NCBI RefSeq assembly: GCF_003429665.1
Contig: NZ_QUWK01000002.1
Location: 1 to 64,000, forward strand
DNA: 64,000 nucleotides
Direction of reading: 5' to 3'
Origin: Sphaerochaeta halotolerans
GTDB taxonomy: Bacteria > Spirochaetota > Spirochaetia > Sphaerochaetales > Sphaerochaetaceae
In this document: positions 14,144 through 41,998 of the stretch, piece by piece
Numbering within the stretch: the first letter of the stretch is position 1
Layout: each line of letters starts with the position of its first letter
Program-made: the position numbers and the translations under genes
Notes under the pieces: generated by a model
Seen by the model: the letters and a program-made list of their open reading frames with translations, nothing else
What the model was told of the DNA's origin: nothing
The model's database searches: none

Positions 14144-14779
14144 TCAACTATTTTTGGGGAACTTCAATTCGTAGAAAATCTGTTCCAGCTCCAGGGCAAT
14201 GTTGATGTTGTGGACCACTGGAGCACGTCCATCTTCCTGCTTCTGGGACTTGAGGGTGATGGGGCTGAAGTTGAGGATTCCCATGACGCCTGCTGCGAGC
14301 AGACGCTCATAGCTGTCCTGTGCAGCCTGCTCAGGTACCGTGATGATACCTGCGGTTACCTCGAGAGCCTCAACAACCTCATCGATCCTACTGATGGGGT
14401 AGACGGGGACTGGGTGAGACGCATCGCTGTAGACCAATGGATCGCTGTCAAAGCCTGCCACTATCCTGATGCCATCGGGTTCAAACCCATTGTAGTGCAT
14501 CAGGGCTTTCCCGATTCTTCCACATCCAACGATGATGCAGTTCTGGCTGTCCCCTTTTCCAAGAATCTCTCCAAGCCCTTTGAGCAGATCATGGATTTCA
14601 TACCCACCGCGTTTTTGGCCATGAATGCCCAACTGGGAAAAGTCTTTGCGTACAATGGCGGCTGAAACGCCTGCTGCATCGGCAAGGTTGTGGGCAAACA
14701 CTTTCTCAAGTCCGATGGTCTTGAGACGATTAAGGGAGCGATAGTATCTTGTGATCCGTACCAGCTGGTCATTGTTCAT
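14144..14779 (-). CDS. rex: Redox-sensing transcriptional repressor Rex
   Basis: A 211-residue Rex. The N-terminal winged helix (RITRYYRSLNRL, then SAAIVRKDFSQLG, the recognition helix) is followed by an NAD(H)-binding Rossmann fold with VGCGRIGKAL. Rex leaves DNA when the NADH/NAD ratio rises, releasing fermentation and hydrogenase genes. Here it is divergent from the hydrogenase operon, which consumes NADH, so the circuit is self-consistent. AGGAG precedes the ATG. Its own -10 box overlaps a palindrome, suggesting autoregulation. Confidence 0.95.
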   Translation of the reverse strand: MNNDQLVRITRYYRSLNRLKTIGLEKVFAHNLADAAGVSAAIVRKDFSQLGIHGQKRGGYEIHDLLKGLGEILGKGDSQNCIIVGCGRIGKALMHYNGFEPDGIRIVAGFDSDPLVYSDASHPVPVYPISRIDEVVEALEVTAGIITVPEQAAQDSYERLLAAGVMGILNFSPITLKSQKQEDGRAPVVHNINIALELEQIFYELKFPKNS

Positions 14780-14956: not shown

Positions 14957-15430
14957 ATGTCGGACATTAACAAAGTCACGTTCTCACCCGAATTGGTAGC
15001 ATTCATCAAAGAATGGAAAACCAAACAGGGTAATCTCATTATGGTGCTCCACAAGGTACAGCAAGAACAAGGCTACATCTCCCGCGAAGCGGCAGATACA
15101 GTAGCTGAATTGCTTGATGTGCCTTTGGCAACCATCTGGGGTGTCATAACATTCTACCACTTCTTCAAGCTGACCAAGCCTGGCAAACACAATATTCAAG
15201 TGTGCATGGGAACGGCCTGCTATCTCAAGGGTGGTCAGGCGATCATTGACGAGTTGGATAAGCAACTGCATTTACCGGTAGGAGCAGTAACAGAAGATGG
15301 GAACTTCTCCTTGGAGGCAGTACGTTGTGTCGGTTGCTGCGGGCTTGCCCCGGTCATGACCGTTGGTGGAGAGGTTTTCGGTAAGGTCACCAAGGACCAA
15401 GTTGCCGGAATCATCGCGAAGTTCAGATAA
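14957..15430 (+). CDS. hydC: NuoE-like [2Fe-2S] subunit of NAD-coupled [FeFe]-hydrogenase
   Basis: A 157-residue thioredoxin-fold subunit related to NuoE and HndA/HydC. The four cluster ligands are C in CMGTACYLKGG (two) and CVGCCGLAP (two), with GVITFYHFF the conserved helix. It passes electrons between the NuoF-like flavin subunit and HydA in electron-bifurcating hydrogenases. Start chosen at ATG 14957 because GGAGG lies 7 bases before it; an earlier TTG is in frame but lacks this. First gene of a five-gene operon divergent from rex. A -35/-10 pair for this operon is not clear; TTGAAA 14863 with TAGATA 14888 has a poor 19-base spacing. Confidence 0.92.
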   Translation: MSDINKVTFSPELVAFIKEWKTKQGNLIMVLHKVQQEQGYISREAADTVAELLDVPLATIWGVITFYHFFKLTKPGKHNIQVCMGTACYLKGGQAIIDELDKQLHLPVGAVTEDGNFSLEAVRCVGCCGLAPVMTVGGEVFGKVTKDQVAGIIAKFR

Positions 15431-15449: not shown

Positions 15450-16070
15450 ATGCATATCTGCATCGATGACTATCTGTTGGATATCGTACAGAACTCGTTT
15501 GAGGCAGGCAGTTCCCTTGTGGAACTCACCTTTGCTGAGACGGGAACCAATCTTTTCTGTGAGATACGAGACAACGGAAAGGGAATGAATGCAGAGATCC
15601 AGAGACGTGTGCTGGACCCGTTCTATTCAGATGGGGAGAAGCACAAGAAGCGAAAGGTCGGACTGGGCTTACCGTTTCTATCTCAGGCATGCGATGCCTG
15701 CGATGGGACCTTTGCCCTGCAATCGGAAGAGGGGATTGGAACCACGGTTTCCTTCTCTTTCCGCCTGGACCACATAGATGCCCCTCCTATGGGGAATGTG
15801 GCTTCCACTTTCCTGGCACTACTCAGCCATCCTCTCTGTGAAGAGCTGGTGATTGAGCGGAGTTTGGAAACAGGGAAGGGCGGAGAGGCGTATACGCTTC
15901 GAAAAAGCGAGCTTGAAGCGGTCCTTGGACCATTTGAGACCAGCGGTACATTGGCACTGCTCAGGCAGTACCTTTCCTCTCAGGAGGAAGAGCTGGAACA
16001 GTACCGCGAAGAGAATTTGCTGGATATGCACAGAAGAAATACGTCACCTTCCAGACAACAGGAGATGTGA
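15450..16070 (+). CDS. Histidine-kinase-like ATPase (HATPase_c) in the hydrogenase operon
   Basis: A 206-residue soluble protein with a GHKL ATPase fold: N box IVQNSFEAGS, G1 RDNGKGM, and G2 GLGLPFL. It lacks a dimerisation/phospho-acceptor helix, a receiver or a membrane segment, so it is not a normal sensor kinase. The C-terminal helix (SSQEEELEQYREENLLDMHR) is charged. Genes of this kind recur between the hydrogenase subunits of fermentative anaerobes, where their job is not settled; regulation or assembly are possibilities. It starts 20 bases after the NuoE-like gene (ATG 15450, behind AGGAGAGAGG) and its stop precedes the ferredoxin ATG by 2 bases. Confidence 0.82.
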   Translation: MHICIDDYLLDIVQNSFEAGSSLVELTFAETGTNLFCEIRDNGKGMNAEIQRRVLDPFYSDGEKHKKRKVGLGLPFLSQACDACDGTFALQSEEGIGTTVSFSFRLDHIDAPPMGNVASTFLALLSHPLCEELVIERSLETGKGGEAYTLRKSELEAVLGPFETSGTLALLRQYLSSQEEELEQYREENLLDMHRRNTSPSRQQEM

Positions 16071-16072
16071 AC

Positions 16073-16477
16073 ATGGCTAAAATGACACTTGAAGAGCTGA
16101 GAAAGCTCCGTGAAAAGAAGCAGAATGAAATCCAGAAGCGCGATATCGAGGGCAAGGATGCCCGTATTATCGTTGGCATGGGGACCTGTGGTATTGCAGC
16201 CGGTGCAAAGCCGGTACTTGATACCTTTTTAGAAGTCCTCGACGAGAAGAAAATAGACAATGTCTCGGTCACCCAGACCGGATGCATGGGACTGTGCTAT
16301 GTGGAGCCGACCATCGAGGTTATCGTTCCCGGTATGCCCGATGTCATCTATGGGAAGGTGGATGTAGAGACGGCACGCAAGATAGTTGAGCAGCATATTA
16401 TCGGGAAGCAGCTGGTAACCGACCATATGTTCGATCGTCCTGCAGCTGACATCATCAAGAAGGATGGGGGTAAATAA
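16073..16477 (+). CDS. Thioredoxin-like [2Fe-2S] ferredoxin (HndB-type subunit)
   Basis: A 134-residue protein. The N-terminal charged helix (EELRKLREKKQNEIQKRD) is followed by a thioredoxin-like ferredoxin: GMGTCGIAAGA and QTGCMGLCYVEP supply the [2Fe-2S] cysteines. This matches HndB of Desulfovibrio NADP-reducing hydrogenase and the extra small subunit of several Hyd complexes. Start at ATG 16073 behind GGAG; a GTG two codons earlier is possible. Its stop overlaps the next ATG by one base. Confidence 0.88.
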   Translation: MAKMTLEELRKLREKKQNEIQKRDIEGKDARIIVGMGTCGIAAGAKPVLDTFLEVLDEKKIDNVSVTQTGCMGLCYVEPTIEVIVPGMPDVIYGKVDVETARKIVEQHIIGKQLVTDHMFDRPAADIIKKDGGK

Positions 16478-18264
16478 TGGCGTTCAGAAACTACATTTTG
16501 GTCTGTGGAGGAACAGCGTGTGAATCGAGCCGCGCGGACCAGATTTACCAGAACCTCTTAGAAGAGTGCAAGGCTCAGGGAGTTGCGGACGAGGTACAGA
16601 TTGTAAAGACCGGATGTTTCGGTTTTTGTGAGCAGGGACCGATTGTAAAGATCTTGCCAGAAGACTCCTTCTACGTGAAAGTTAAACCCGAAGATGCAAA
16701 AGAGCTTATCAGTGAGCACATCATCAAGGGCCGTGAAGTCACCCGACTGTTGTATGACAAAGAAGCAAGCAGAAAGAATGCAAAGGTAGAGGATATCAAA
16801 TTCTACCAGAAGCAGTTCAGGATTGTGCTTCGCAACTGTGGATTCATTGATCCAGAAAATATTGACGAATATATTGCCCGTGAAGGGTATCAGGGCTTGG
16901 AGAAGGCTCTCTTCGAGATGACAAGCGAGGATATCATCGAAGAATTGAAAACAGCAGGGCTCCGCGGTCGTGGAGGGGCTGGTTTCCCCACTTGGATGAA
17001 GTGGAACTTCTCCCGCCAGGCAGAAGATGACGTCAAGTACGTTGTCTGTAATGCGGACGAAGGTGATCCAGGTGCCTACATGGATCGCTCAACGCTCGAA
17101 GGTGACCCGCACAGCGTGCTTGAAGCAATGACCATCTGCGGGAAGGCGATTGGAGCAACGAGAGGTTTCATCTACATTCGCGCAGAGTATCCCTTGGCAA
17201 TCCATCGTCTGGAGATTGCCATGCAGCAAGCTCGTGAATACGGTCTTCTTGGAGATAATATTTTGGGCAGTGGTTTTGATTTTGATATTGAGATCCGCCT
17301 TGGAGCCGGTGCATTTGTTTGTGGTGAAGAGACTGCACTCTTGCAGTCCATCGAAGGCAAGCGTGGTATGCCGCAACCCCGTCCTCCTTTCCCTGCTGTA
17401 AAGGGACTCTGGGGCAAGCCGACTGTCATCAACAACGTTGAGACATGGGCGAATATCCCTGTCATCCTTACCAAGGGGGGCAACTGGTTCAGCAAGATTG
17501 GAACTCCAGACAGCAGGGGAACCAAGGTCTTTGCCCTCACCGGCAAGATTCGCAACTCCGGTCTTGTGGAAGTCCCGATGGGCACCACCCTTCGTGAGAT
17601 TGTCTACGACATCGGCGGTGGAATAGCCAACGACAAGAAGTTCAAGGCAGTACAGACAGGTGGTCCTTCCGGCGGTGTCATTACCGATGCTGATCTGGAT
17701 ACCCCGATTGATTTCGGTTCCTTGGTAAGGATTGGTTCCATGATGGGAAGCGGTGGTATGATCGTCATGGATGAGGATGACTGTATTGTAGACGTTGCAA
17801 AGTTCTATTTGAACTTCACTGTTGATGAATCCTGTGGAAAATGCGCACCGTGTAGAATCGGTGGCCGGTCCTTGACCAACATCCTGGAGAAGATTACCTC
17901 CGGAAATGGCACGTTGCAGGACTTGGATACACTGGAGACCATCGGCGAAGCAATGAGGAAGGGTTCCTTGTGTGCTTTGGGGCAGACTGCTCCCAATCCG
18001 GTCCTATCAACGGTCAAGCATTTCAAGGATGAGTACATAGCCCACATTGTGGACAAGAACTGTCCCAGTGGTACCTGCAAGAAGTTGGTCAGGTACTCGA
18101 TCAATCCCGAGAAATGTAACGGTTGTACGGCTTGTGCACGAAAGTGTCCTGTCGCAGCAATCTCTGGCGGAAAAAAACAAGTTCACATCATTGACCAGTC
18201 CATCTGCAGCAAGTGTGGTGTATGTATGGAGACTTGTAAGTTTGGCGCCGTTGAAATCCACTAG
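16477..18264 (+). CDS. hydB: NuoF-like flavin/NADH subunit of bifurcating hydrogenase
   Basis: A 595-residue HydB/HndC. In order: an N-terminal thioredoxin-like [2Fe-2S] domain (C10, C15, C47, C51); the NADH/FMN core with GLRGRGGAGFP (161-171) and CNADEGDPGA (191-200); ESCGKCAPCR (451-460) with C499 for the [4Fe-4S]; and at the C-terminus two [4Fe-4S] ferredoxin motifs (C547/550/553/557 and C577/580/583/587). This is where NADH is oxidised and where bifurcation is thought to be seated. It lies 21 bases before hydA. Confidence 0.95.
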   Translation: MAFRNYILVCGGTACESSRADQIYQNLLEECKAQGVADEVQIVKTGCFGFCEQGPIVKILPEDSFYVKVKPEDAKELISEHIIKGREVTRLLYDKEASRKNAKVEDIKFYQKQFRIVLRNCGFIDPENIDEYIAREGYQGLEKALFEMTSEDIIEELKTAGLRGRGGAGFPTWMKWNFSRQAEDDVKYVVCNADEGDPGAYMDRSTLEGDPHSVLEAMTICGKAIGATRGFIYIRAEYPLAIHRLEIAMQQAREYGLLGDNILGSGFDFDIEIRLGAGAFVCGEETALLQSIEGKRGMPQPRPPFPAVKGLWGKPTVINNVETWANIPVILTKGGNWFSKIGTPDSRGTKVFALTGKIRNSGLVEVPMGTTLREIVYDIGGGIANDKKFKAVQTGGPSGGVITDADLDTPIDFGSLVRIGSMMGSGGMIVMDEDDCIVDVAKFYLNFTVDESCGKCAPCRIGGRSLTNILEKITSGNGTLQDLDTLETIGEAMRKGSLCALGQTAPNPVLSTVKHFKDEYIAHIVDKNCPSGTCKKLVRYSINPEKCNGCTACARKCPVAAISGGKKQVHIIDQSICSKCGVCMETCKFGAVEIH

Positions 18265-18285: not shown

Positions 18286-20034
18286 TTGAGTATCGTACAT
18301 GTAAAGATAAATGGCATTCCCGTAGAGGTTGAAGCGGGGACAACTATATTGCTTGCAGCCCGGAAGGCTGGGGTAACCATCCCAACCCTCTGCTACCATG
18401 ATGACCTCAAGCCGTTTGGCTCATGTGGTCTGTGTATCGTAAAACAGGAGGGTAATGCCAAAATCCTTAGGGCTTGTGCTACCCCTGCTGCCGAGCATAT
18501 GAGCATCATTACCCATGACCCGGAGTTGTACCAGGTACGTAAGACCATCTTGGAAATGATCTTGAGTACCCATCCGTCCAGCTGTCTTACCTGTATCCGT
18601 AATGGAGAGTGCGAACTGCAGACATTGGCTGCAGAGTTCGGGATTCGTGAGCAACCCTTTGATGTCCGTTTGAGCGATAGGCCTAAGGACACATCCTCTG
18701 CCTCCATCGTCCTTGATCCAGAGAAGTGCATCAAGTGTGGACGCTGTGTCCAGGTTTGTCAGGATCTGCAGGGTGTCTTCGCCCTTGAGTTCATTGGGCG
18801 TGGAGATGGAACTTGCATGGCTCCTGCTGCAATGTTGCAACTTGAGGATAGTCCCTGTGTTCGCTGTGGTCAGTGTGCTGCGCACTGCCCTGTTGGAGCC
18901 ATTTATGAGAAGGATGAGGTTGCTGCCTTCCAGGAAGCAGTTGCTGATCCCGAAAAGCAGGTGGTTGTCCAGATTGCTCCCTCAATCCGAGTAGGGCTTT
19001 CTGAGTCCTTCGGCCTTCCTGCTGGAACCGTCACGACTGGCAAGATTTATGCTGCGCTTCGCAGACTTGGCGTTGATGCAGTGCATGACACCAACTTTGG
19101 CGCTGACCTTACCATCATGGAAGAGGGAAGCGAACTGGTGCACCGCTTGACCAAGGGAGGAGCACTTCCCCAGTTCACCTCTTGCTGTCCGGCTTGGGTT
19201 GACTACGTTGAGAAATACTATCCGGATCTCTTGGACATGGTTTCCAGTGCGAAGAGCCCGATGCAGATGGTGGGAGCTGTAGAGAAGACCTATACTGCCG
19301 AGAAGCAGAATATGGATCCAGCGAAGATGTATACCGTTGCAATCATGCCCTGTACTGCGAAGAAGTATGAGGCATACCGAGACGAGAGTATGCGCTCAAG
19401 CGGGTATCAGGATGTGGATCTTGTCCTTACCACCCGTGAGTTTGCCCGCTTGATCAAGGCAACCGGCATTGATTTTCTCCATCTTGAAGAAGAGGCGGCT
19501 GATAATCCGGTTGGTGAATACTCTGGTGCGGGTACCATCTTTGGTGCCACCGGTGGCGTCATGGAAGCTGCGGTTCGTACCGCTTACCATGTTGTTACCG
19601 GAAAAGAGCTGGAGAATGTTGAAATTGAATCAGTACGTGGTCTTGATGAGATCAAGAAGGGCACGGTTGACTTCGATGGAACGCCGGTTCGTGTAGCCGT
19701 AGTACATGGGCTTTCCCATGTGGCAGAAGTACTGGATGAGGTAAGGGCTGCCCGTGCAGAGGGCAAGCAGGCGCCGTATGAATTCATCGAGGTTATGGCT
19801 TGCCGAGGTGGTTGTATTGCCGGAGGTGGACAGCCTTACGGAGCCACCGACGTCCTACGTACAAAGCGTGCTGCCGGTCTCTACTCCGATGACAAGCAGA
19901 GCAAGGTCAGATGTTCACACCAGAACGAATCGATCAAGCAACTGTACGAGGAGTTCCTGGACAAGCCGCTCAGCAAAAAATCTCATCATCTCTTACATAC
20001 CACCTATCAGGAGATTCCTGTTTACAAGGCCTGA
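18286..20034 (+). CDS. hydA: [FeFe]-hydrogenase catalytic subunit
   Basis: A 582-residue enzyme that reduces protons to H2 with electrons from NADH and ferredoxin. N-terminal [2Fe-2S] (C36, C47, C50, C64), a His-Cys [4Fe-4S] (H96, C100, C103, C109), two [4Fe-4S] motifs (C148-C158, C191-C201), then the H-cluster domain with TSCCPAW (298-304), MPCTAKK (354-360) and MACRGGC (504-510) followed by GGGQP. All four H-cluster cysteines and the proton-transfer cysteine C300 are present. The start is a TTG, supported by AGGAGGA 6 bases upstream. The maturases HydE, HydF and HydG are not in this window. Last gene of the operon; a terminator follows. Confidence 0.97.
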   Translation: MSIVHVKINGIPVEVEAGTTILLAARKAGVTIPTLCYHDDLKPFGSCGLCIVKQEGNAKILRACATPAAEHMSIITHDPELYQVRKTILEMILSTHPSSCLTCIRNGECELQTLAAEFGIREQPFDVRLSDRPKDTSSASIVLDPEKCIKCGRCVQVCQDLQGVFALEFIGRGDGTCMAPAAMLQLEDSPCVRCGQCAAHCPVGAIYEKDEVAAFQEAVADPEKQVVVQIAPSIRVGLSESFGLPAGTVTTGKIYAALRRLGVDAVHDTNFGADLTIMEEGSELVHRLTKGGALPQFTSCCPAWVDYVEKYYPDLLDMVSSAKSPMQMVGAVEKTYTAEKQNMDPAKMYTVAIMPCTAKKYEAYRDESMRSSGYQDVDLVLTTREFARLIKATGIDFLHLEEEAADNPVGEYSGAGTIFGATGGVMEAAVRTAYHVVTGKELENVEIESVRGLDEIKKGTVDFDGTPVRVAVVHGLSHVAEVLDEVRAARAEGKQAPYEFIEVMACRGGCIAGGGQPYGATDVLRTKRAAGLYSDDKQSKVRCSHQNESIKQLYEEFLDKPLSKKSHHLLHTTYQEIPVYKA

Positions 20035-30791: not shown

Positions 30792-33743
30792 ATGATACAA
30801 CGGCAATGGGCCTTAGGGGATGAGCTCGCGGGCTTCCAACTGGTGGAAATCACCCAGCTTGATGAGTATAAGGGAACCGGATATTTGTTCCGACATATCG
30901 AGACCAATATGGAGGTCTTTCAGCTCATCAATTCTGATAGAGAACGATTCTTCAGCTATGTCTTTCGGACACTTCCCAATAATGATTGTGGTATTGCACA
31001 TATCCTGGAACACAGTGTACTGGCAGGTAGCCAACGCTATCCTGTGAGGGATCCCTTCATGACCCTGCTCAAGGGAAGTACCAATACCTTCATGAATGCA
31101 ATGACATATCCGGATAAAACCCTCTATCCCGGTGCGAGTCCCTTACAGAAGGATTTTGAGAATCTTTTCCATGTATATACAGATGCTGTATTTGCTCCTC
31201 TGCTTCGTGAGGAGACGTTCTGGCAGGAAGGCGTACGCCTGGTTTGCGAAGAGGAGCGTTGCCACTTCGAAGGAGTGGTCTACAATGAGATGCTGGGTGA
31301 TAGTGCTGACCATGATTCAATCGTCGGCAAGGGCAGCATCCGCTCTCTGTTTCCCGACACCCCGTACTCCTTTGAATCGGGTGGCGATCCAGAGCAGATT
31401 GTTCGGTTGGATTACCAACAGTTTCGCTCCTTCTATAGCCAGTTTTACCACCCTTCCAATTGCAAGCTTTTCTTGTATGGGGATCTTGAGGTAGGGGAGT
31501 ATCTCTCATACCTTGATGAGGAATACCTGAAAACACGTGGTTCTCTCAAGGTGAACAGCCTCTGTCCTGTAGCCGAACCATGGAAGAAGGAGAGAAGTGT
31601 CACTCTCACCAGTCCCATGGAAGAAGGGCAGACAAAGGAAAGTGCCTCGGTAGTGCTTTCCTGGGCAACCACTGACGTGAGTGACCCTCTGCAGGTCATC
31701 ACGCTTTCCACCCTTGTTGATCTGCTGCTTGGTAATCAGGCAGCCCCCTTGTACAAAGCATTGCTCGATAGTGGGCTGGGTATCGACATTTCTCCTGAGA
31801 GTGGCATGAGTGCAGATTTCAGGCAGATGCCGTTCCTGGTAGGATTCAAGGGGATCAAACCGGAATTGGCAGAAGATGCAAAAGCATGTATCTTGCAAGC
31901 TTTGGAGACAATCGTCAAAGAGGGATTGGAACCTGAAATGGTTGCCTCTTCCTTGAAACGGATTCGTTTCAAGCAGCTGGAAATACCGGGAGGTGTTCCC
32001 AACGGGCTAAGGGCCTTGAACAGAAGTCTACGTGGGTGGCTCTATGATCTATCCCCTTGTGCAACCATTGAGTCGGGGAAACCTCTCGAAGCTTTGGAGG
32101 ATGCACTCCACAAGGATTCTCGTTACTTTGAGAATTGGATCAAACGCCATCTTCTGGACAATCCGCACCGTTGTTTGGTTACGGTAAAACCAGATGGCGA
32201 ACATCAGAAAAGACAGACAGATGCCATCGCTCGATATGCAACACAGGTCACTGCGTCTCTGGACAAGAAAGGGGTCAAGCTCTTGCAAGACCAGAACCAG
32301 CGTTTCCTTCAGTTTGAAATGGAAGGAGATACTCCTGAGGCATTGGCTACAATCCCACGTCTCCATCTGGAGGACCTTCCCTCTACAATTCGTCCCAATA
32401 CGCACCAAACGATGCAGTGTGCAGGGCAGCCACTCTACATCCGACCACAGTTCTGTAACCAGATTGTATACGCCGATTTCGCGTTCAATGTGGAGGATCT
32501 TAGTGAACGAGAGCTGATCCTGTTGCCTTTGTATACCCGATTGCTCCAGACCACAGGGTTGGGGGACCTTACCTATGCACAGGTGGCGACCAGACTGAAG
32601 CACTTGACCGGTGATTTCAACGTCTATACAGAAATGGGTAGTTCATGCAACGAACGTGATGTTTTGATGCTGATGTGCAGGGTAAAGACGCTCAGAGAGG
32701 ACTTTGAGCCTGCTATGCAGTTCGTCCAGGAACTGCTCACCGGTGCGAATATGGGCGACCTGAAGCAATTGAAGTTGGTATTGAACAACTATAAAACTGA
32801 TTTTGCTGACAGTGTTACCTACAGTGCCCATAGCTTTGCAAGCCTCTGTGCTGCAAGTGTGTTTTCCCCCATCCAGTGGGAAGGGGAGCAACTTTCAGGC
32901 CTACATCAGTGGTTTTTCTTGGAATCGATAGAAGAGAAAGATCTTCCCTCTATTGCCCAGGAACTGGAACAGTTGCAACGAAAGCTTTCCAACCGCAGAA
33001 GATTGCTCCTGCATCTCAGCTGTGATGAAGCGTTGGTTCAAGAGTTTGTTCCAGTGTATGAAGCATTCACGAAGGCATTCAGTGACCAGGGAGTAGTGCA
33101 ACCGGTACCACGCTCATACAAAGAGGTAAGCAAAGGAACCATTCATGAAGTACAACTCTACCGACTTCCTGCAACGGTCAGCTATGCAGCATGGGCCATG
33201 CGAACTGAGAAACGGGGTACTGTGTTGCAGGCCGCCCAGATTCTCCTTGCAAATATCCTGACGGGAAATGATCTTTGGGAAGTCATTAGAGGGCAGGGTG
33301 GTGCCTACGGTGTTGCCGCAAATGCTGATGTCATGGAAGAAATCTGTGTATTTTCTACCTACAGGGACCCCCGCATTGCCGGTACCTATCGCGATTTCAT
33401 CAAGATTCTCAATAAATATGCCCAAATTGATATTGATCCAGGACATATTGAGAATGCCTTGATTGCAACCATTGGGAGTGAACTCAAGCCACTGTCACCC
33501 AGCCAGGATTCCATTCTTGCGTTCAGGCGGTTGTTCTACCATATCAGTGATGAGTTCAGGGCAATGAGACGCCAACATTTGTTGCAGTTGGACAGCAAAC
33601 AACTCAACGAAGGAGCGAAAGCCTTGCTTCGATCTGCAAAGGAAGAAGACTCCTATGTTGTGCTCAGTGGGGCCCAGCTGCTGGAAGCAGAAAAAGAGAA
33701 GCACCCTATCCTCGATCGTCCTTCGATACGTCTTCCGCTCTAG
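30792..33743 (+). CDS. M16C (PreP-like) zinc metallopeptidase
   Basis: A 983-residue inverted zincin. HILEH (H70, E73, H74) is the HxxEH site and NEMLG contains the third ligand, Glu 166. Size, the early position of the zinc motif and the long tail fit the presequence-protease (PreP/Cym1) group, which degrades unstructured peptides inside a closed chamber. The second half (EVIRGQGGAYGV near residue 830) is the substrate-binding R/Y pair of the inactive half. No signal peptide is seen. Start at ATG 30792 behind AAGGAG. The last 38 bases overlap the convergent Fe-S protein gene. Confidence 0.92.
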   Translation: MIQRQWALGDELAGFQLVEITQLDEYKGTGYLFRHIETNMEVFQLINSDRERFFSYVFRTLPNNDCGIAHILEHSVLAGSQRYPVRDPFMTLLKGSTNTFMNAMTYPDKTLYPGASPLQKDFENLFHVYTDAVFAPLLREETFWQEGVRLVCEEERCHFEGVVYNEMLGDSADHDSIVGKGSIRSLFPDTPYSFESGGDPEQIVRLDYQQFRSFYSQFYHPSNCKLFLYGDLEVGEYLSYLDEEYLKTRGSLKVNSLCPVAEPWKKERSVTLTSPMEEGQTKESASVVLSWATTDVSDPLQVITLSTLVDLLLGNQAAPLYKALLDSGLGIDISPESGMSADFRQMPFLVGFKGIKPELAEDAKACILQALETIVKEGLEPEMVASSLKRIRFKQLEIPGGVPNGLRALNRSLRGWLYDLSPCATIESGKPLEALEDALHKDSRYFENWIKRHLLDNPHRCLVTVKPDGEHQKRQTDAIARYATQVTASLDKKGVKLLQDQNQRFLQFEMEGDTPEALATIPRLHLEDLPSTIRPNTHQTMQCAGQPLYIRPQFCNQIVYADFAFNVEDLSERELILLPLYTRLLQTTGLGDLTYAQVATRLKHLTGDFNVYTEMGSSCNERDVLMLMCRVKTLREDFEPAMQFVQELLTGANMGDLKQLKLVLNNYKTDFADSVTYSAHSFASLCAASVFSPIQWEGEQLSGLHQWFFLESIEEKDLPSIAQELEQLQRKLSNRRRLLLHLSCDEALVQEFVPVYEAFTKAFSDQGVVQPVPRSYKEVSKGTIHEVQLYRLPATVSYAAWAMRTEKRGTVLQAAQILLANILTGNDLWEVIRGQGGAYGVAANADVMEEICVFSTYRDPRIAGTYRDFIKILNKYAQIDIDPGHIENALIATIGSELKPLSPSQDSILAFRRLFYHISDEFRAMRRQHLLQLDSKQLNEGAKALLRSAKEEDSYVVLSGAQLLEAEKEKHPILDRPSIRLPL

Positions 33744-35034
33744 CTTTGTCTCCCCAGATTCTGGAAAGTGAGGGAGCGGTCTGTGCGTTTCTCAGTTTGA
33801 GCACCACACACTGTTTGAGGCTTGCTTGGTTACGCGCAATATCCTCTGCAAGACTCTTACAGGTGGGACTTCCGCAAAGTCCGCAGTCGATACCAGGTAG
33901 GACTTTCAAGATATCGGTCACTTTCTGGAGTTTATACAAAGCTCTGGAACGATCTGCATCGAGACCCATCGCCGTTGTTGCTTTAAAAGGAGGCAACATG
34001 GGGTTTTCACGGAAGGCTTCTGCCTGGCTACGGATACGATTGACAAATGGTTCATCAAGCACCTCAGGAAGTTGCTGGGAGTAGTGCTTGAGCCGTTCTG
34101 AGGCAAGGAATCGGTTTCTCACTGTGAGAATTCCTCCCACGCACCCTTCAGCACATGCTTCCAATTCGAGAAATTGCAGATTCGTCTGTTCTTCTTCTTC
34201 GAGAATTTCCAAGAACTCAATGACATTATGCATCTCATCAACTGCAAGGGTACGCCCGTCATGGGAGGGAATCTGGCCTTTCACCAAGCTCCAGAGCAGT
34301 GCCTGCTTGGTGCACATGGCAAAGGTAAAACTGCCTTCCTGGACCTGGTCATGCTTTGCAAGATAGGTGCTTACCAGATTATACGCAGTATCGATATTGA
34401 TGATGCCATCAAATAATCGGTTCTCTTCTGAACCCTCAGTCTTGAATTGGGCAATCTTTGCTGCACACGGGGTGAAATAGAATATTCCTGGGTTTGCTGA
34501 TAGTTCAGCAAGTTCGCTTCTTGCAAAGATGGCAGCTACTTGGGCGGGGGGACGCAGCCTGCTCAGGTTGTCTACCAAGAGGGGGAAACGAATCTGGGTC
34601 AAGCGTTGCACAGCAGGGCAGAAGTTGCTTATCAAAGGCAATTCAGGTGTTCCTTCCTCTGCCTCAAGGACGTCCAGGATATCTACACCGGTCTCAGCAA
34701 GGTAGATATGGGTAAATCCGATTGCGTACAACGCCCCTAACACTTCGCCAAACGTGATAGTGTCAGGGAATTGGGCTAAGAATACGGCAGGGATGATGGC
34801 AACACGGACCAGGTAGTCCTCCAATTGGTCGAAGGGGTCCTGTTCTACCTTGATGGCGTCATTGGGACAGACTGCCATGCATTGGCCACAGTCAATACAG
34901 AGTTCCCCGCTGATCTCCGCTTTCCCGTGGTGGATGCGAATAGCCTGGGTTGGACACCGCTTCATGCAATGGGTACATCCCTTGCAGGAGGAGGTGATGA
35001 CCCTGATAGCGTGATGAAATATCTGGTCACTCAT
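33706..35034 (-). CDS. Hydrogenase-like Fe-S protein with H-cluster-type domain
   Basis: A 442-residue protein in four parts: two [4Fe-4S] ferredoxin motifs (C17/20/23/27 and C46/49/52/56); a [FeFe]-hydrogenase-like domain where NFCPAV, TPCAAK and ACAEGCVGG hold cysteines at the positions of all four H-cluster ligands (C139, C190, C294, C298); and a C-terminal [4Fe-4S] domain (CGLCGSPTC, C384/387/392/409). The proton-relay cysteine next to the first ligand (C300 in the HydA of this window) is Phe 138 and GGGQP is absent, so efficient H2 turnover is unlikely. A redox or H2 sensor is the more likely role. Last gene of a three-gene operon, overlapping the ATPase gene by ATGA. Confidence 0.85.
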   Translation of the reverse strand: MSDQIFHHAIRVITSSCKGCTHCMKRCPTQAIRIHHGKAEISGELCIDCGQCMAVCPNDAIKVEQDPFDQLEDYLVRVAIIPAVFLAQFPDTITFGEVLGALYAIGFTHIYLAETGVDILDVLEAEEGTPELPLISNFCPAVQRLTQIRFPLLVDNLSRLRPPAQVAAIFARSELAELSANPGIFYFTPCAAKIAQFKTEGSEENRLFDGIINIDTAYNLVSTYLAKHDQVQEGSFTFAMCTKQALLWSLVKGQIPSHDGRTLAVDEMHNVIEFLEILEEEEQTNLQFLELEACAEGCVGGILTVRNRFLASERLKHYSQQLPEVLDEPFVNRIRSQAEAFRENPMLPPFKATTAMGLDADRSRALYKLQKVTDILKVLPGIDCGLCGSPTCKSLAEDIARNQASLKQCVVLKLRNAQTAPSLSRIWGDKARAEDVSKDDRG

Positions 35035-35453
35035 GACTCCTCCTTCAGGTCGAACCCCATGGTTATATGGGTATGCCCTCCTGCTTGGGTCTTGATTGAG
35101 AGCCGGTCACAGCTCTTCTTGATGTTCGGCAGTCCCATACCAGCTCCATACCCTAGCTCCAAGATCTCTTCGGTGGCCGTAGACCACCCTTCCTTCATAG
35201 CAAGGTCAAGATTAGGGATACCTGGACCGGTATCGATGACTTCTACCGTAATGGTGTTTTCACTCAGCTCACAGACAATCTTGCCCCCATAGGAGTGGGC
35301 AATGACGTTGACCTCGGCTTCGAAGACGGCAACGGTAATTCGTTTGATTACCTTCGGGGGGAGATTCAACTGTTTAAGCAACCGCTTGAAGTTACTTGAG
35401 GCAACTCCGGCTACTGAGAAATCTTGGGCTGGTACGGTATACTCTTGATGCAT
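35031..35453 (-). CDS. Anti-sigma-factor-like ATPase (RsbW/SpoIIAB type)
   Basis: A 140-residue GHKL ATPase: AVFEAEVNVIAHSYGG (N box), VIDTGPGIPN (G1) and GYGAGMGLPNIK (G2). It resembles serine kinase/anti-sigma regulators such as RsbW. No sigma factor or anti-anti-sigma gene is adjacent, so its partner is probably one of the two operon neighbours. It begins one base after the DRTGG gene stop and overlaps the Fe-S gene by four bases, so the three proteins are made together. Confidence 0.85.
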   Translation of the reverse strand: MHQEYTVPAQDFSVAGVASSNFKRLLKQLNLPPKVIKRITVAVFEAEVNVIAHSYGGKIVCELSENTITVEVIDTGPGIPNLDLAMKEGWSTATEEILELGYGAGMGLPNIKKSCDRLSIKTQAGGHTHITMGFDLKEES

Positions 35454-35454
35454 C

Positions 35455-35799
35455 TCAATATACCGGTTTCAATCCTTCGTTGAAGAGCAGTGCACTGGCT
35501 TTGAACAGAGAGTAGGAAGTGTAAGAGAGGGAAATGTTCAGCTCCTGTGCCATATCGATCATGTTCTGGCTTGGCTTCTTGTTCCTTACCAATAGGATGT
35601 TTTTAATGTCGCTCATCTCTGCTGTCCTGATCGCCTGGTTGTTCGAGAGTCCTGTGATGAGAAGAATGTCGTCCTCAAGAATGGTCAACACATCACTCAT
35701 CAGGTCGCTGGCAAATCCCCGTGTAATCTCATCTTCGAGATGTGACTCTCCACAGATCAAGTGTCCATCTACACATGCAATAATATCTTTAAGCTTCAT
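35455..35799 (-). CDS. DRTGG-domain protein
   Basis: A 114-residue cytosolic protein resembling the DRTGG domain found next to CBS domains and in phosphotransacetylase: MKLKDIIACVDGHLICGE, GFASDLMSDVLTILEDDILLITGLSNNQAIRTAE and a final VRNKKPSQNMIDMAQELN. The domain is thought to bind small molecules or nucleotides. Start set at ATG 35799; no Shine-Dalgarno is visible and a TATACT box ends 7 bases before it. First gene of the operon with the anti-sigma-like ATPase and the H-cluster-like protein. Confidence 0.8.
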   Translation of the reverse strand: MKLKDIIACVDGHLICGESHLEDEITRGFASDLMSDVLTILEDDILLITGLSNNQAIRTAEMSDIKNILLVRNKKPSQNMIDMAQELNISLSYTSYSLFKASALLFNEGLKPVY

Positions 35800-35903: not shown

Positions 35904-37655
35904 CTAATTCTTACGCAGTAATACCATCACCTGATATGGATCAAGCTGTATATATTCTGATACGGCGTTTGTCCTATTGGTGATCAGATCCATATATTCT
36001 TTTTCTTTTGAGGTTTCATACCAATGAAGTGGGATGCTTTGTGGAACAGCACTGATATTGACTGCAATTAAAATCTCTTCCAAGGGTTTGTTGTTTTCTC
36101 TCTTTTTTCTTGCGGTACGAAGGAATGCAAAACATCCTGGATTGTTTGTATCTATAATTTTTTGGTCGGCAAGTGGAGATAACGCTGCTTCATGTTTCCT
36201 GATTTCCAAGAGTGCAAGCATACTTTTTAAAATGACAGAGCGTCTGCTATGAGGGTCCGAAAGTTCATTTCTCAAAGATTGTATTTCAATTTTTTCACGA
36301 TTAATCTTTCTTGGATTCAACGAGAGCGATGGTGCATCAGTCCAATTCTTTGAGCCAATCAAGCTATGGATATAGATACCTGGAACTCCCTTGAAGAAGA
36401 TCATTATTGCAGAAGCAGCAATGAATCGTTTTATGGCAAGAGACTCAGGTTCATCCTCAATAATGTTTGAGAGGGCAGAAAAGTAGTTGATATTCAGTTC
36501 ATACGGGCTAGTCGAACCATCGTTTTCATTTCTTCTTGAGATGAAACCTCCTTCCTTTTGCGTATGCTGAGCCATCGCCTCAATTTCAGCTTTTGAAAGA
36601 AGATCCTGTACCGGCATCAATCCGATGCCATCATGGGAGGCAAGGAAGTTGAAAAATGTTACTTCGCTTGAAGGGAGCAGAAGTGTTTTCGCCCATGAGG
36701 ATAGAGCAGTAGCATCCTGCGAGAGGAATGTATGGAACACAAGAGGGGGTAGTGAAAAATTATAAACCATTGCGGCTTCATTGTGTCCATTTCCAAAGTA
36801 GGAGATGTTTTCTTTATGGGGTACATTGGTCTCAGTAATCAAAAGACTATCGGGTGAAAGAGAAGAAAGAATCTGCGAAAAAAACTGTATGATTGCATGA
36901 GTCTTCGGATGGTGGATGCACCGTGTACCCAACTCCTTCCAAAGAAAAGCAACGGCATCAAGGCGGACTACCGATGCACCGTGTACCAGGTATATGAGCA
37001 GGATTTCTGTCATCATGAGGAGGACTTTGGGATTGTGATAGTTGACATCTACCTGGTCACTGCTGAATGTGGTCCAAACCAGTTTTTCTCCAATCTTGGT
37101 CAGCAATGGCAACGCACGTGGCCTGAATACAGAACTGATATCCTCCTCGCCCTGCAATTCGATGATGAAGTCTTTATACGGAGCAGTATCCTTCAAGGAT
37201 GCTTGGATCCAAGTATTCTCACGTGAGAGGTGATTTGCCACAAAATCAAACATAAGTTGATAGTCTTTCTGAAGAGCGTGGATATCCTCCCAGCTTCCAA
37301 AGACGGGATCTACTTCGACAGGGTCAATAACGGAAAAACCATCATCTGAACTGGAAGGGTAGAATGGAAGCAGATGTACCGTTGAAATGGTTGAGCCGAT
37401 ATACTCATGCAGAAATGCTCGCAGGAGAGGGAGCGTTGGGCAGTTTGGTTCGGCTACGAGGGAATCTGCATACGTTATAAGAATGGAGGTATGTTGTTCC
37501 AGTGGTATCTCTGGTTTTGGGAGTTTCTGCTGAAGTTCTCCTCGATATTTTTCCAATAATGATATGAATGCATCACGATAGTGTTCTGCTTCCCTCTTTC
37601 CATATATCTCAGTCAAATGGGTGATGACCAAATTCTGCAAATTCATGTTACTCAT
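35904..37655 (-). CDS. GH13_18-type sugar phosphorylase (sucrose/glucosylglycerate phosphorylase-like)
   Basis: A 583-residue alpha-amylase-fold enzyme of the sucrose phosphorylase subfamily. Seen: LLPFYPSSSDDGFSV (active-site loop), MFDFVANHLSRE, VVRLDAVAFLWKELG (nucleophile Asp), LLITETNVPH (acid/base Glu) and LASHDGIG (third carboxylate). Such enzymes split an alpha-glucoside with phosphate to glucose 1-phosphate and an acceptor; members act on sucrose, glucosylglycerate or related compounds, and the acceptor cannot be told by eye. Start at ATG 37655, overlapping the LacI stop by ATGA. Last gene of the sugar operon. Confidence 0.88.
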   Translation of the reverse strand: MSNMNLQNLVITHLTEIYGKREAEHYRDAFISLLEKYRGELQQKLPKPEIPLEQHTSILITYADSLVAEPNCPTLPLLRAFLHEYIGSTISTVHLLPFYPSSSDDGFSVIDPVEVDPVFGSWEDIHALQKDYQLMFDFVANHLSRENTWIQASLKDTAPYKDFIIELQGEEDISSVFRPRALPLLTKIGEKLVWTTFSSDQVDVNYHNPKVLLMMTEILLIYLVHGASVVRLDAVAFLWKELGTRCIHHPKTHAIIQFFSQILSSLSPDSLLITETNVPHKENISYFGNGHNEAAMVYNFSLPPLVFHTFLSQDATALSSWAKTLLLPSSEVTFFNFLASHDGIGLMPVQDLLSKAEIEAMAQHTQKEGGFISRRNENDGSTSPYELNINYFSALSNIIEDEPESLAIKRFIAASAIMIFFKGVPGIYIHSLIGSKNWTDAPSLSLNPRKINREKIEIQSLRNELSDPHSRRSVILKSMLALLEIRKHEAALSPLADQKIIDTNNPGCFAFLRTARKKRENNKPLEEILIAVNISAVPQSIPLHWYETSKEKEYMDLITNRTNAVSEYIQLDPYQVMVLLRKN

Positions 37656-38677
37656 GATGACTCTCTGATAATAAGTGTCGGGCATAGGATAATTTGCATT
37701 TTTTCTATGCCATCAGCTTTTGCCCTATACGTTGGATGCTTCTCCTGTATAGCCTTGATAAGTAGTTTAGTAACCAGGGAACCGATATCTGCGATAGGTT
37801 GCCGGACAGTTGTGAGAGGGGGCCTGTACAGCTCTGCCATGGGTACATCGTCAAATCCGGTAATGGCAAGATCAGTCCCAATGGAAAGACCTCGCTCTTT
37901 TCCTGCATTAATTGCCCCGAATGCAATACTGTCATTGAAGCAAATGATAGCAGTCGGAGGATGAGGAAGATCAAGCAGTTTGTGTGCCTGTACATACCCA
38001 TCTTTCTGGTCAAAACTACCGATGCATACCATCTCATCAGGAAGTGATAACCCGATGAGTTCCATATGTTTCCTTACAGCCCGTAAGCGAACAGCAGAGA
38101 ACATGACCGAAAGAGGCGGTGCAATACAAGCAATCCTTGTATGTCCTTTCCCAGCAAGATGATCTACCACGCAAGCCATTGCGTAATCACTGTCTTCTTC
38201 AACAAACGGAAAGTCTTGTTTGTTTTCAACCATGCCAAAAGAAGCAAAGGGGAAGTCAATGGATGACAGGTAATCAATCCTTTCATCGTGGCATAATGTC
38301 CTGCTTATGACAAATCCATCTACCCTTCGCCCGTCTATCAGTTTCTTGTAGAATGAAAGTTCCTTCTCTCTTTTTGCGTAGGCAACAAGCAAATCTAATC
38401 CCTGCTCTGAGGCTTCTTTACCAATGCCCGCAAGCAATTCACTGAAGAATGGCTCTCCGTAGCCTTTGGCAGAATAGGGAACAACGACGCCGATGGTGTC
38501 AGTTACCTTCTTCTGTAGCCGTTGGGCGATACTGTTGGGTACGTACCCCATTTCGGTTGCAGTATTCCGTACCAAGCGAATAGTTTCAGGACTTACATCA
38601 GAATATCCCGCGAGTGCACGGGATACGGTGGTTATTGATATATGTAAGCGCTCAGCAATATCTTTCAATGTTACCAT
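37652..38677 (-). CDS. LacI-family transcriptional regulator
   Basis: A 341-residue regulator: N-terminal helix-turn-helix and hinge (VTLKDIAERLHISITTVSRAL) followed by a periplasmic-binding-protein-like sugar-sensing domain (PPTAIICFNDSIAFGA, DLAITGFDDVPMAELYRPPL). It most likely binds the two perfect CCAAAACGTTTTGG palindromes before the binding-protein gene and responds to the imported sugar or its product. Start at ATG 38677 behind TTGGAG. It overlaps both neighbours, so it is made from the operon it controls. Confidence 0.92.
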   Translation of the reverse strand: MVTLKDIAERLHISITTVSRALAGYSDVSPETIRLVRNTATEMGYVPNSIAQRLQKKVTDTIGVVVPYSAKGYGEPFFSELLAGIGKEASEQGLDLLVAYAKREKELSFYKKLIDGRRVDGFVISRTLCHDERIDYLSSIDFPFASFGMVENKQDFPFVEEDSDYAMACVVDHLAGKGHTRIACIAPPLSVMFSAVRLRAVRKHMELIGLSLPDEMVCIGSFDQKDGYVQAHKLLDLPHPPTAIICFNDSIAFGAINAGKERGLSIGTDLAITGFDDVPMAELYRPPLTTVRQPIADIGSLVTKLLIKAIQEKHPTYRAKADGIEKMQIILCPTLIIRESS

Positions 38678-40071
38678 AGTGTGTTGCTCCAAGTTGTTAC
38701 ATAGGGTTTAAGAAGCGTACTGAGGGTTTCCAAGGAAAACGATTCCTGACCTATCTTGAAGTTTGATTCTACCATATCCAATCGTGCATGTCTGTCGAAA
38801 AGGACGGTACAGGCAGCAATAGCCGCTTGTTCTATCTGAACGGAAGGAAGCTGAGCAAGCCCTTGGGTATCCCAAGAAAGGCTCTCTCTATCCCCAAGCT
38901 CAATCATTGAGAATCCTGATTTTTTAATGTCGCTATTGTATATTTCATAGGGAAACAAGACTATGGGGAGTTTTGCCACCACTGCTTCCAGCAGCTGATT
39001 ACCCCAGCCTTCCCAATAGGAAGGGTACGTCACCATATCCGCATGCGCATAAGCATCCCACAGACTGTATATTTTGGCTTCTTCCTTTTTTGTACGTGTA
39101 TGTTCGATATGTTCCCCTATCCAAAGCAAATTGACATGTTGGCTACGAGCTCTTTCTTTTAGTTGTGCGAGGTACGCTCCCGCATCATTTTCAATGCTAC
39201 CGGCAAGTACCAGGACAACCTTGCTTGCTTCTGAAAAAATCTTTCCATTATAAAGAGCTTTTCCATTATATGCTTCCAGTTTTTTTGTCAGTATCTGGGC
39301 AAAATCAATAGCAAGCTCAATCCCCTTGCGCTTTACCACTCTGGTAGCTTGCAACAGGAGCACATCATGCTCATTGATACCGAAAGCTTCTCGGAAATCA
39401 CTGTTGTATGTATCTATTTCCCATGGGCCTTTGCTGAAATCAAAGACATTGGGGATGATGTTGGAGTTGATACCTTTGCGTTCTGCAAGAGCCTTTTGGG
39501 CCTTTGAGTTGATGACCACATGTGCATACTGTCCGCCATGGGGAGGAAGGTATTGGTCAGCTATCCGCATAGCAGAGTTACAGGTAAGTCTAATAGGGGT
39601 CACTCGCTCCCAATAGAAGTCATGATGATGAGCAAGCACATGAAGCCTGCGTTCGTGTATGACGTTCTCCAACGCAATGGCGGCTGCTGGGTGCAATCCC
39701 ACTGACCAAATGTTCTCCACAATCAAGACATCCAATGTGACGGAATCAATCCAAGAAAGCAGCTCTTTGGTTAGTGTCAGTACCTCATTTTCCATGGTTT
39801 TTTCATAGGCCGATTCACTGCCGAAATCCTCGAGATTATCGAATGTTCCTCTATTCAATGCACGTGCCTCCTCCCGGAAATAGGAAAGAGAGGGAAGGAC
39901 GGTGCACTGATTATCTTGCATCGGCGGTTGTCCGCAACAGTAATGTACAGTGTGTCCTTCTGAAAGAAACACATCACGCCACTTGTCCATTTCCAGGGAG
40001 ACGCCATCTGTATCACCTGTCTTGAAGTGTATCATTCCAATCGAAAGAGATGCATGCCGATTTTTAATCAT
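38671..40071 (-). CDS. GT4-like glycosyltransferase of the sugar operon
   Basis: A 466-residue GT-B glycosyltransferase of the retaining GT4 type. Seen: GDTDGVSLEMDKW at the N-terminal acceptor domain, NVFDFSKGPW linker, LLLQATRVVKRKGIELAI (donor domain first strand) and PSYWEGWGNQLLEAV, whose Glu-x7-Glu is the donor-binding signature. No membrane segment. Its location inside a catabolic ABC/phosphorylase operon is unusual: it may make a disaccharide whose breakdown the phosphorylase performs. Overlaps the permease stop by ATGA. Confidence 0.85.
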   Translation of the reverse strand: MIKNRHASLSIGMIHFKTGDTDGVSLEMDKWRDVFLSEGHTVHYCCGQPPMQDNQCTVLPSLSYFREEARALNRGTFDNLEDFGSESAYEKTMENEVLTLTKELLSWIDSVTLDVLIVENIWSVGLHPAAAIALENVIHERRLHVLAHHHDFYWERVTPIRLTCNSAMRIADQYLPPHGGQYAHVVINSKAQKALAERKGINSNIIPNVFDFSKGPWEIDTYNSDFREAFGINEHDVLLLQATRVVKRKGIELAIDFAQILTKKLEAYNGKALYNGKIFSEASKVVLVLAGSIENDAGAYLAQLKERARSQHVNLLWIGEHIEHTRTKKEEAKIYSLWDAYAHADMVTYPSYWEGWGNQLLEAVVAKLPIVLFPYEIYNSDIKKSGFSMIELGDRESLSWDTQGLAQLPSVQIEQAAIAACTVLFDRHARLDMVESNFKIGQESFSLETLSTLLKPYVTTWSNTLW

Positions 40072-41030
40072 TCTTTTACACCACCTGCAGCAAGTCCTCC
40101 TGTAAGATTTTTCTGGATGGACATGAATAGAATCATTACCGGGATAGCTGTAAGCATTGATGCAGCCATTATTCTATCCCAAATAGCATTCTTTGATACA
40201 AAGAGGGTTTTTAATCCGATGGGTAGTGTGTAGAGGCCTTTGTAGCTTTTCAGGAAAATTGATGCAAACATATATTCGTTCCAGGCAATCATGAAGCAGT
40301 AGATGAATACAGTAACGATGGCAGAAATGGACAACGGAATTATGATACGTATGATAATACCGAATCTACCGAGGCCTTCAATCATTGCAGCCTCTTCTAT
40401 AGAATAGGGAATGGTTCGGAAATAGTTGCCCAGCATATACAGGGAGACAGGGAGGGTTTGTACCACATAGATAATAATCAAACTTACAACGGTGCCTGCT
40501 GGAGTGTCGAGTAGTCCTGATGCTGCAAATATGCGGTAGAGAGGAATAAGCAAGAGGACTCCCCCAAACATATACACAAACAACACGCCCCGTTGTACAA
40601 CGGACCGTCCTCGGAATACGAGTCGGCTAAACGAGTAGGCTCCCAGTATTGAGAGGCATACGGATATTAATGATGCCAGGAACGCAACCATGAGAGAGTT
40701 GGCAAAATATTTGAGGAAGGGGAAAACGTCCCCTGTGCTTTGATATTTGGAAAGGATTGCCTCTTTTTGCGTTTCAGTGAGGTCCGGTGATTCGCTAAGC
40801 AGTAGCCGAACCGACTCAGGTACATCCTTGAGCGACCCCCCGATGTTCAGCAATTCCTTGTAGGCTTCTAGATTCACCTTGGAAGGGATCCATGAAGGGT
40901 TCCCCCAATCCCAGGAGTATTTCAGCGATAAGGACAGCATCTGAGCGAATGGGAAGAGGCAGAAAAACAGGATTGCCATGATCAAGAGGAAGAACAGTGT
41001 GCTTTTTACAATATTTCGTTTTTTTACCAT
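40068..41030 (-). CDS. ABC sugar transporter permease (MalG-type)
   Basis: A 320-residue inner-membrane permease with six hydrophobic segments. The EAA loop, EEAAMIEGLGRFGIIIRIII then PLS, contacts the ATPase. A large hydrophilic insert after the first helix (about residues 40-105) resembles a MalG-type periplasmic loop. No ATP-binding subunit is in the operon, so a shared MsmK/MalK-type ATPase encoded elsewhere must serve it. Overlaps the other permease gene by seven bases. Confidence 0.93.
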   Translation of the reverse strand: MVKKRNIVKSTLFFLLIMAILFFCLFPFAQMLSLSLKYSWDWGNPSWIPSKVNLEAYKELLNIGGSLKDVPESVRLLLSESPDLTETQKEAILSKYQSTGDVFPFLKYFANSLMVAFLASLISVCLSILGAYSFSRLVFRGRSVVQRGVLFVYMFGGVLLLIPLYRIFAASGLLDTPAGTVVSLIIIYVVQTLPVSLYMLGNYFRTIPYSIEEAAMIEGLGRFGIIIRIIIPLSISAIVTVFIYCFMIAWNEYMFASIFLKSYKGLYTLPIGLKTLFVSKNAIWDRIMAASMLTAIPVMILFMSIQKNLTGGLAAGGVKE

Positions 41031-41926: not shown

Positions 41927-41935
41927 TGTATACCT

Positions 41936-41949
41936 CTAAAATGTTTTGG
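41936..41949. promoter_or_regulatory. Degenerate third operator-like site
   Basis: CTAAAATGTTTTGG differs from CCAAAACGTTTTGG at two of 14 positions. It sits between the binding-protein stop and the permease start, inside the operon, where a LacI-type protein could act as a roadblock. Confidence 0.35.
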
Positions 41950-41958
41950 GTTTTTCAA

Positions 41959-41987
41959 GAGGGGGGGGTAATCTCCTCCCCCCCCTC
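41959..41987 (-). terminator. G8/C8 hairpin behind the binding-protein gene
   Basis: GAGGGGGGGG (41959-41968) pairs with CCCCCCCCTC (41978-41987) directly after the binding-protein stop. On the minus strand it is not followed by a real T-run (TTGAAAAA), so it is more likely a 3' stabiliser or a leaky terminator that keeps binding protein in excess over permeases, as in other ABC importer operons. Confidence 0.5.
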
Positions 41988-41998
41988 GGATAGGGCCA

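Follow-up and report, generated by a model that had tools for sequence, protein, structure and literature searches.

A group D-type [FeFe]-hydrogenase homologue encoded with a SpoIIAB-like ATPase and a DRTGG protein in Sphaerochaeta halotolerans: a candidate sensory module near an electron-bifurcating hydrogenase

Published work on how group D [FeFe]-hydrogenases transfer a signal has tested TamHydS of Thermoanaerobacter mathranii alone. The same question bears on three genes on the minus strand of a 64,000-nucleotide stretch of Sphaerochaeta halotolerans DNA (assembly GCF_003429665.1, contig NZ_QUWK01000002.1, positions 1 to 64,000; the window). In this order, they encode a DRTGG-domain protein, a SpoIIAB/RsbW-like ATPase of the GHKL type, and an [FeFe]-hydrogenase homologue, HydS (Table 1; the trio). 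An earlier note on this DNA had proposed that they form an H2 or redox sensor controlling a sigma factor or kinase target. The module is real and conserved. A sensory role for group D has already been proposed via TamHydS (PMC8163306), so the class itself is not new. The near-obligate partners of HydS (SpoIIAB-fold ATPase and DRTGG protein) and the second subclade described below make the question of signal transfer testable with three small soluble proteins.

The trio operon and its hydrogenase homologue

The trio is a tight three-gene operon in the Sphaerochaeta genome. The open reading frames (ORFs) confirm the packing described in the earlier note, with a 1-base gap between the DRTGG and ATPase genes and a 4-base overlap between the ATPase and HydS genes. 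The inner ATG at position 35799, where the earlier note had set the end of the operon, is the most likely DRTGG start because related proteins begin with MKL. Pfam matches above the cut-offs were Fe_hyd_lg_C, Fer4, and FeS (PF04060) for HydS and HATPase_c_2 and HATPase_c for the ATPase; the DRTGG protein scored 30.4 bits (gathering cut-off 25.2). HydS is under strong purifying selection, with ratios of nonsynonymous to synonymous substitution rates (dN/dS) of 0.04–0.09. The association of the three genes is not due to chance: an RsbW-like gene immediately precedes HydS in 71 of the 72 loci counted, the exception being a cut contig, a DRTGG gene lies upstream in 70 of 72, and the gene block is conserved across several bacterial phyla.

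Models of the single proteins, a check suggested by the earlier note, gave an H-cluster-type fold for HydS and a SpoIIAB-like fold for the ATPase. The AlphaFold2 model of HydS, built with 40 sequences, had a predicted local distance difference test score (pLDDT) of 89. Its PDB matches listed were [FeFe]-hydrogenases or hydrogenase-type subunits throughout (Foldseek E-value approximately 1e-15 or better), and the comparison with CpI gave a VIA Z of 34 and that with CbA5H a Z of 35.6. HydS is thus predicted to have an H-cluster-type fold, and the fold searches barely test its C-terminal part beyond approximately residue 357.

A search of 149 relatives and one scan of a genome collection yielded 122 different HydS sequences. 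The H-cluster ligand positions C139, C190, C294, and C298 were correctly assigned in the earlier note and are kept in all 122. The Fer4 clusters of the window protein comprise C17/20/23/27 and C46/49/52/56, and the C-terminal motif is C384-x2-C387-x4-C392-x16-C409. All 16 cluster cysteines are present in essentially all 122 sequences; the deviations, confined to the eight positions at the N-terminus and the four at the C-terminus, are one substitution and two shortened sequences. K193, the equivalent of the [2Fe] contact K358 in CpI, is present in 118 of 122.

The position of the proton-relay cysteine (CpI C299) is occupied by Phe (residue 138), as the earlier note had recognized. Phe or Tyr is found at this site in most of the 122 sequences and Ser or Ala in most others; Cys does not occur there. 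Every sequence has Thr or Ser at the M353 site (T188 in the window protein), and the M497 site of the window HydS is E292. E252 of TamHydS, the proposed proton-relay glutamate of group D (PMC10407848), corresponds to Q254. Gln or Val at this site is restricted to 22 of the 122 sequences: Gln254 occurs in all 18 Sphaerochaeta HydS read, and elsewhere Gln or Val was found only in loci L138, L139, L142, and L053. E290 and D266, which correspond to TamHydS E289 and D265, are retained. All three of these proton-path residues are reported to be highly conserved in group D, although they do not define it. Because C299 is replaced and the relay glutamate is Gln254, both published proton routes are altered in the window HydS, and a reduced turnover appears plausible from these substitutions.

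The group A signatures TSCCPxW, MPCxxK, and ExMACxxGCxxGGGQP are absent. The window HydS has ISNFCPAV, TPCAAK, and LELEACAEGCVGGILT instead, and GGGQP, whose absence the earlier note had also recorded, is replaced by GGILT. Assignment to group B1, the best NCBIfam name, was rejected because the score of 96 bits falls far short of the cut-off of 450. The published features of group D (M2e) are a pair of [4Fe-4S] motifs at the N-terminus, a Cx2Cx4Cx16C motif at the C-terminus, the absence of a PAS domain, the loss of C299, and Ser or Thr in place of M353 (PMC8163306), and each of these features is found in the window HydS. Judged by these features, HydS can be grouped with the "putative sensory" [FeFe]-hydrogenases published as group D (M2e), of which TamHydS is the characterized member.

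TamHydS (PMC8163306, PMC10407848, PMC13104023) shares with the window protein the domain plan and all the group D features just named. With published residue numbers as the basis of the comparison, C379/S384/E392/D393 of TamHydS correspond to C384/S389/E397/D398 at constant spacing. An adjoining HATPase gene and a bifurcating group A hydrogenase nearby are common to both loci. In a tree that did not include TamHydS itself and carried a long-branch warning for the reference sequences, HydS fell into two halves, one with Ser or Ala at the C299 site (Clostridia, Atribacterota, and other spirochaetes) and a Phe/Tyr clade (71 rows; Shimodaira–Hasegawa-like approximate likelihood-ratio test 99) that holds the window protein and Bacteroidota. 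Two members of the Ser/Ala half (L136 and L143) have Ala, Ser or Thr, and Leu at the three pocket sites, as in TamHydS. The M497 site is mostly Arg, Asp, Lys, or Glu in the Phe/Tyr clade, whereas it is Leu or Met in TamHydS-like sequences, and the C299 site is aromatic in the window subclade instead of Ala or Ser. Furthermore, the relay site is Gln in the window protein but Glu in TamHydS, and the DRTGG and SpoIIAB-like partner genes contrast with the AraC-type regulator reported for TamHydS. According to this placement, the window HydS appears to fall in a previously uncharacterized subclade with an altered pocket, sister to the sequences that resemble TamHydS.

The group C proteins TmHydS, R. 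albus HydS, and HfsB resemble the window HydS in the sensory proposal, the loss of C299, and the C-terminal [4Fe-4S] motif. They differ in carrying a PAS domain, the C-terminal hallmark of group C, for which no Pfam match was obtained in the window HydS up to an E-value of 1, and in their partners, which are histidine kinases, chemotaxis proteins, or PP2C phosphatases (HydDB C1–C3). The window genome also contains an hfsABCD-like locus (L175, contig G000:C2, 5839–10580, minus strand) encoding a PAS-bearing group C HydS (602 amino acids), a SpoIIE-type phosphatase, and a 490-amino-acid hydrogenase, with a Rex-like gene nearby (11043–11714). The organism therefore encodes putative sensors of both types, group C and group D.

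Link to the bifurcating hydrogenase

A hydrogenase operon with the order HndA-HATPase-HndB-HydB-HydA (14957–20034), divergent from a rex-like gene, is located in the same window (Table 1). The distance from the end of HydA to the end of HydS is 13.7 kb, and the same arrangement and distance were found in a second Sphaerochaeta genome (G002). This physical link to the HydABC operon, missed in the earlier note, is a stronger clue to the controlled target. Where 6 kb or more of downstream sequence was available (46 loci), HydB lies no more than 8 kb away and on the same strand in 31 loci. The trio opens or is embedded in electron-bifurcating HydABC operons (group A3) in Bacteroidales, Clostridia, and others. 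The typical Bacteroidales order on one strand is DRTGG, RsbW-like, HydS, DRTGG2, PHP, HATPase, HndB, HydB, HydA, and HndA; in Clostridia, HndA precedes the second HATPase. Sphaerochaeta differs from these full operons in that the trio is split off and inverted, and neither DRTGG2 nor PHP was seen alongside. A description of this operon context was not found in the literature searched.

Several loci show variants of this arrangement. In L133 (10687–11970), PHP and the second HATPase are fused in one protein, and this natural fusion indicates that the two work together. Two clostridial loci (L138, 11625–17562; L142, 7247–13186) contain the trio, PHP, HndA, HATPase, HndB, and HydB followed by RnfC/D-like genes, with no HydA beside them; both genomes lack HydF, and both HydS have Gln at the relay position. 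Two Parabacteroides loci (L084 and L091) have the operon head DRTGG, RsbW-like, HydS, and DRTGG2 without HydABC in the flank, PHP being seen in L084; HydF is absent from these genomes as well.

Table 1. Genes of the trio and of the hydrogenase operon in the window
Feature	Position	Strand	Basis
rex-like redox repressor gene	14144..14779	minus	sequence reading; recovered beside other hydrogenase loci
HndA/HydC-like subunit, start uncertain	14957..15430	plus	sequence reading; homologues in other hydrogenase operons
second GHKL HATPase, homologous to the HATPase after PHP in full operons	15450..16070	plus	Pfam
HndB-like subunit	16067..16477	plus	ORF, homologous operons
HydB-like flavin/NADH subunit	16477..18264	plus	ORF, homologous operons
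HydA, catalytic group A3-type (TSCCPAW, MPCTAKK, EVMACRGGCIAGGGQP)	18286..20034	plus	all catalytic motifs
HydS, group D-type [FeFe]-hydrogenase homologue, 442 aa	33706..35034	minus	ORF, Pfam, alignment, model
SpoIIAB/RsbW-like GHKL ATPase, 140 aa	35031..35453	minus	ORF, Pfam, conserved residues, model and Foldseek, profile match to SpoIIAB
DRTGG-domain protein	35455..35799, ORF open to 35844	minus	ORF, Pfam, alignment

Proposed signal path and competing explanations

The model of the trio ATPase (pLDDT 91.7) matched SpoIIAB best in the PDB (1til; template modeling score 0.82, E-value 2.5e-10), with RsbW as the second match. The protein contains an N-box (E45-x3-N49), H53, a G1 box (D74-x-G-x-G), and a G2 box (G101-x-G-A-G-M-G). 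Glu45/Asn49, His53, Asp74, and the G2 loop have counterparts in the SpoIIAB alignment, and these residues, like both glycine boxes, do not vary among 121 sequences, so the protein is likely an active ATP-binding switch or kinase, which resembles SpoIIAB in its modeled fold and probably also in its chemistry. The DRTGG protein, in which S50 and T64 are invariant and T74 nearly so (129-amino-acid numbering), may be the nearest candidate partner of this ATPase. Its best structural relative was a CBS-pyrophosphatase at an E-value of only 0.24, and the literature search for DRTGG together with hydrogenase gave one unrelated paper. In two spirochaetes (L046, 7912–8298; L047, 8077–8466; both minus strand), a lone response-regulator receiver replaces DRTGG upstream of the RsbW-like and HydS genes, which hints at phospho-signaling in the module.

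We assign a probability of roughly 0.5 to the reading that HydS is a non-metabolic group D-type H2/redox sensor that signals via the ATPase to the synthesis or activity of HydABC. H2 or the ferredoxin pool would set the state of the H-cluster site and the Fe–S chain of HydS, and the change would be passed by direct contact to the co-translated SpoIIAB-like ATPase, probably a protein kinase or an ATP-dependent switch. The DRTGG protein could serve as adaptor or substrate of the ATPase in the place of a STAS protein, or the ATPase could have another target. The pathway would end at the nearby Rex/HydABC bifurcating hydrogenase, whose synthesis or activity it would control. Deletions of group C HydS or HfsB alter hydrogenase expression or flux (PMC11837493, PMC8924675), which supports hydrogenase regulation by HydS proteins in general, although the group C proteins carry PAS domains. 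From the sensor module of the earlier note, the single operon, the H-cluster-type fold, the lack of a usable group A proton relay, and the kinase-fold partner stand, but an output through RsbW-type control of a sigma factor is not supported.

Several observations weigh against a sensor of this kind. TamHydS is catalytic (PMC8163306), which leaves room for a role as a slow enzyme, and H2 does not reduce its C-terminal cluster (PMC13104023). Since H2 does induce a structural change in TamHydS (PMC13104023), the probable origin of the signal is the H-domain or the N-terminal clusters, rather than the redox state of the C-terminal cluster. The experimental data on HydS come from outside the subclade of the window protein. 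HydB is not found nearby in 15 of the 46 well-flanked loci, so HydABC is not an obligate neighbor of the trio, and DRTGG is absent from several loci of the Ser/Ala half (L046–L052) and thus cannot be the universal output. Finally, 22 of the 31 trio genomes that are at least 95% complete lack both HydF and HydG, so the HydS of these relatives may carry no [2Fe] subcluster and an H2 signal is doubtful there.

HydF was searched with the HydF-specific domain PF18133 at an E-value of 0.001; every candidate was scored, and T. maritima served as positive control. Among the 31 genomes, seven have both HydF and HydG and two have HydF only; the 22 include several Sphaerochaeta genomes that consist of one contig (e.g., G001, G002, G004, G016, and G018). 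In the collection scan, HydF was present in 25 of 32 trio genomes, which were mostly Bacteroidales with few Clostridia and others. HydEFG is patchy in Sphaerochaeta. The window genome encodes HydF, HydE, and HydG as one operon (L173, G000:C7, 15734–19433), and four others are positive, while all three were negative in single-contig genomes among the relatives compared (G001, G002, G004, G011, G016, and G018). One HydEFG-positive genome, G024, may include a contaminating contig, as the start of its HydEFG piece resembles that in G007. The single-contig HydEFG-less Sphaerochaeta still hold four to five [FeFe]-hydrogenase genes. Every catalytic motif is present in the HydA read from HydEFG-less genomes, and HydS ligands and low dN/dS are retained. 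Either a maturation route was missed or the proteins function without the [2Fe] part in these genomes. If confirmed, the presence of HydS and intact HydA in near-complete genomes without HydEFG would question the role of these proteins or HydEFG as the only maturation route. As a marker of HydEFG loss, loss of the relay glutamate is suggestive only: Glu persists in many genomes that lack HydF, and Gln occurs in five Sphaerochaeta that possess HydEFG. The window genome also encodes a second group A-like HydA (L176, G000:C43, 6455–8263, minus strand; 602 amino acids) with TSCSPGW, that is, Ser at the C300 ligand position. It adjoins a 1051-amino-acid HydB-like fusion, similar sequences recur in relatives, and it is possibly of the glutamate synthase-linked A2 type.

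The missing maturases speak for an H2-independent redox switch, in which HydS would hold only the [4Fe-4S] part of the cluster and report the ferredoxin/NADH state to the ATPase, the hydrogenase scaffold having been re-used. Replacement of the relay glutamate by Gln or Val in three lineages (the mostly HydEFG-less Sphaerochaeta, the clostridial L138/L139/L142, and L053, which lacks HydF), the HydB and RnfC-like genes without adjacent HydA in L138 and L142, and the charged M497-site residue in the Phe/Tyr clade point in the same direction. However, the [2Fe]-contacting lysine is kept almost throughout, the intact catalytic HydA of the same HydEFG-less genomes suggests that some maturation may exist, and the window genome has the three maturases. 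We consider such a switch unlikely. The more specific proposal for Sphaerochaeta and relatives, that an H2-independent [4Fe-4S] switch drives a SpoIIAB-type kinase acting on DRTGG, with no PAS domain, histidine kinase, or STAS/sigma component, and persists without HydEFG, appears unlikely.

The operon shared with HydABC over several phyla, with its two GHKL ATPases, PHP, and two DRTGG proteins, would also suit an accessory or assembly module that builds HydABC, inserts its clusters, or reversibly inactivates it by contact, without transcriptional signaling. The well-flanked loci without HydB argue against such a module. Heterologous production of many HydABC enzymes has succeeded without trio genes, and, judging from structure titles, the HydABC structures of T. 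maritima and A. woodii are not known to include a trio-type subunit. An accessory function is quite unlikely.

That HydS is a slow metabolic hydrogenase or ferredoxin oxidoreductase, with the ATPase and DRTGG genes as functionally unrelated passengers, would agree with the retention of all cluster ligands and with the turnover of H2 by the sister-clade TamHydS (PMC8163306), whose H2 evolution is approximately a thousand-fold below that of group A (PMC11803613). Nevertheless, the near-obligate RsbW–HydS adjacency across phyla, the translational overlap of the two genes, and the loss of both known relay residues in the window HydS render this explanation very unlikely.

The sigma-factor control proposed in the earlier note is unsupported. 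The trio ATPase shares the fold, the ExxxN N-box, and the glycine boxes with SpoIIAB/RsbW but, in contrast to these, is always found beside HydS and misses the cut-off of the anti-sigma F equivalog TIGR01925 (52 bits; cut-off 135). STAS domains gave no match in the window genome, which makes classical anti-sigma partner switching unlikely, and neither a sigma factor gene nor a STAS gene turned up beside the trio. In several other trio genomes (e.g., G004, G018, G041, and G044), STAS matches were confined to long proteins of approximately 550–600 amino acids; stand-alone STAS proteins do occur in others, some of them adjoining SpoIIE-type phosphatases at a distance from the trio. The window genome has a single SpoIIE-type phosphatase, that of the separate locus with the PAS-bearing HydS. 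Despite the SpoIIAB fold and motifs, RsbW-type switching, with a sigma factor bound by the ATPase, freed by a STAS antagonist, and HydS as the gate, is highly improbable.

Regulatory motifs and upstream genes

No match to the Rex operator consensus was found near the trio, and the number of matches in the window equaled chance expectation. Scans for sigma-70 promoters and terminators gave no excess over shuffled sequences. Upstream of the trio, a block on the minus strand (35904–43372) contains sugar ABC transporter genes, a LacI-type regulator gene, and a GH13-like gene. In the relatives L064–L066, L068, L069, and L181, the same spot is occupied by a divergent glycerol-kinase-like gene; the block is apparently a local insertion beside the trio.

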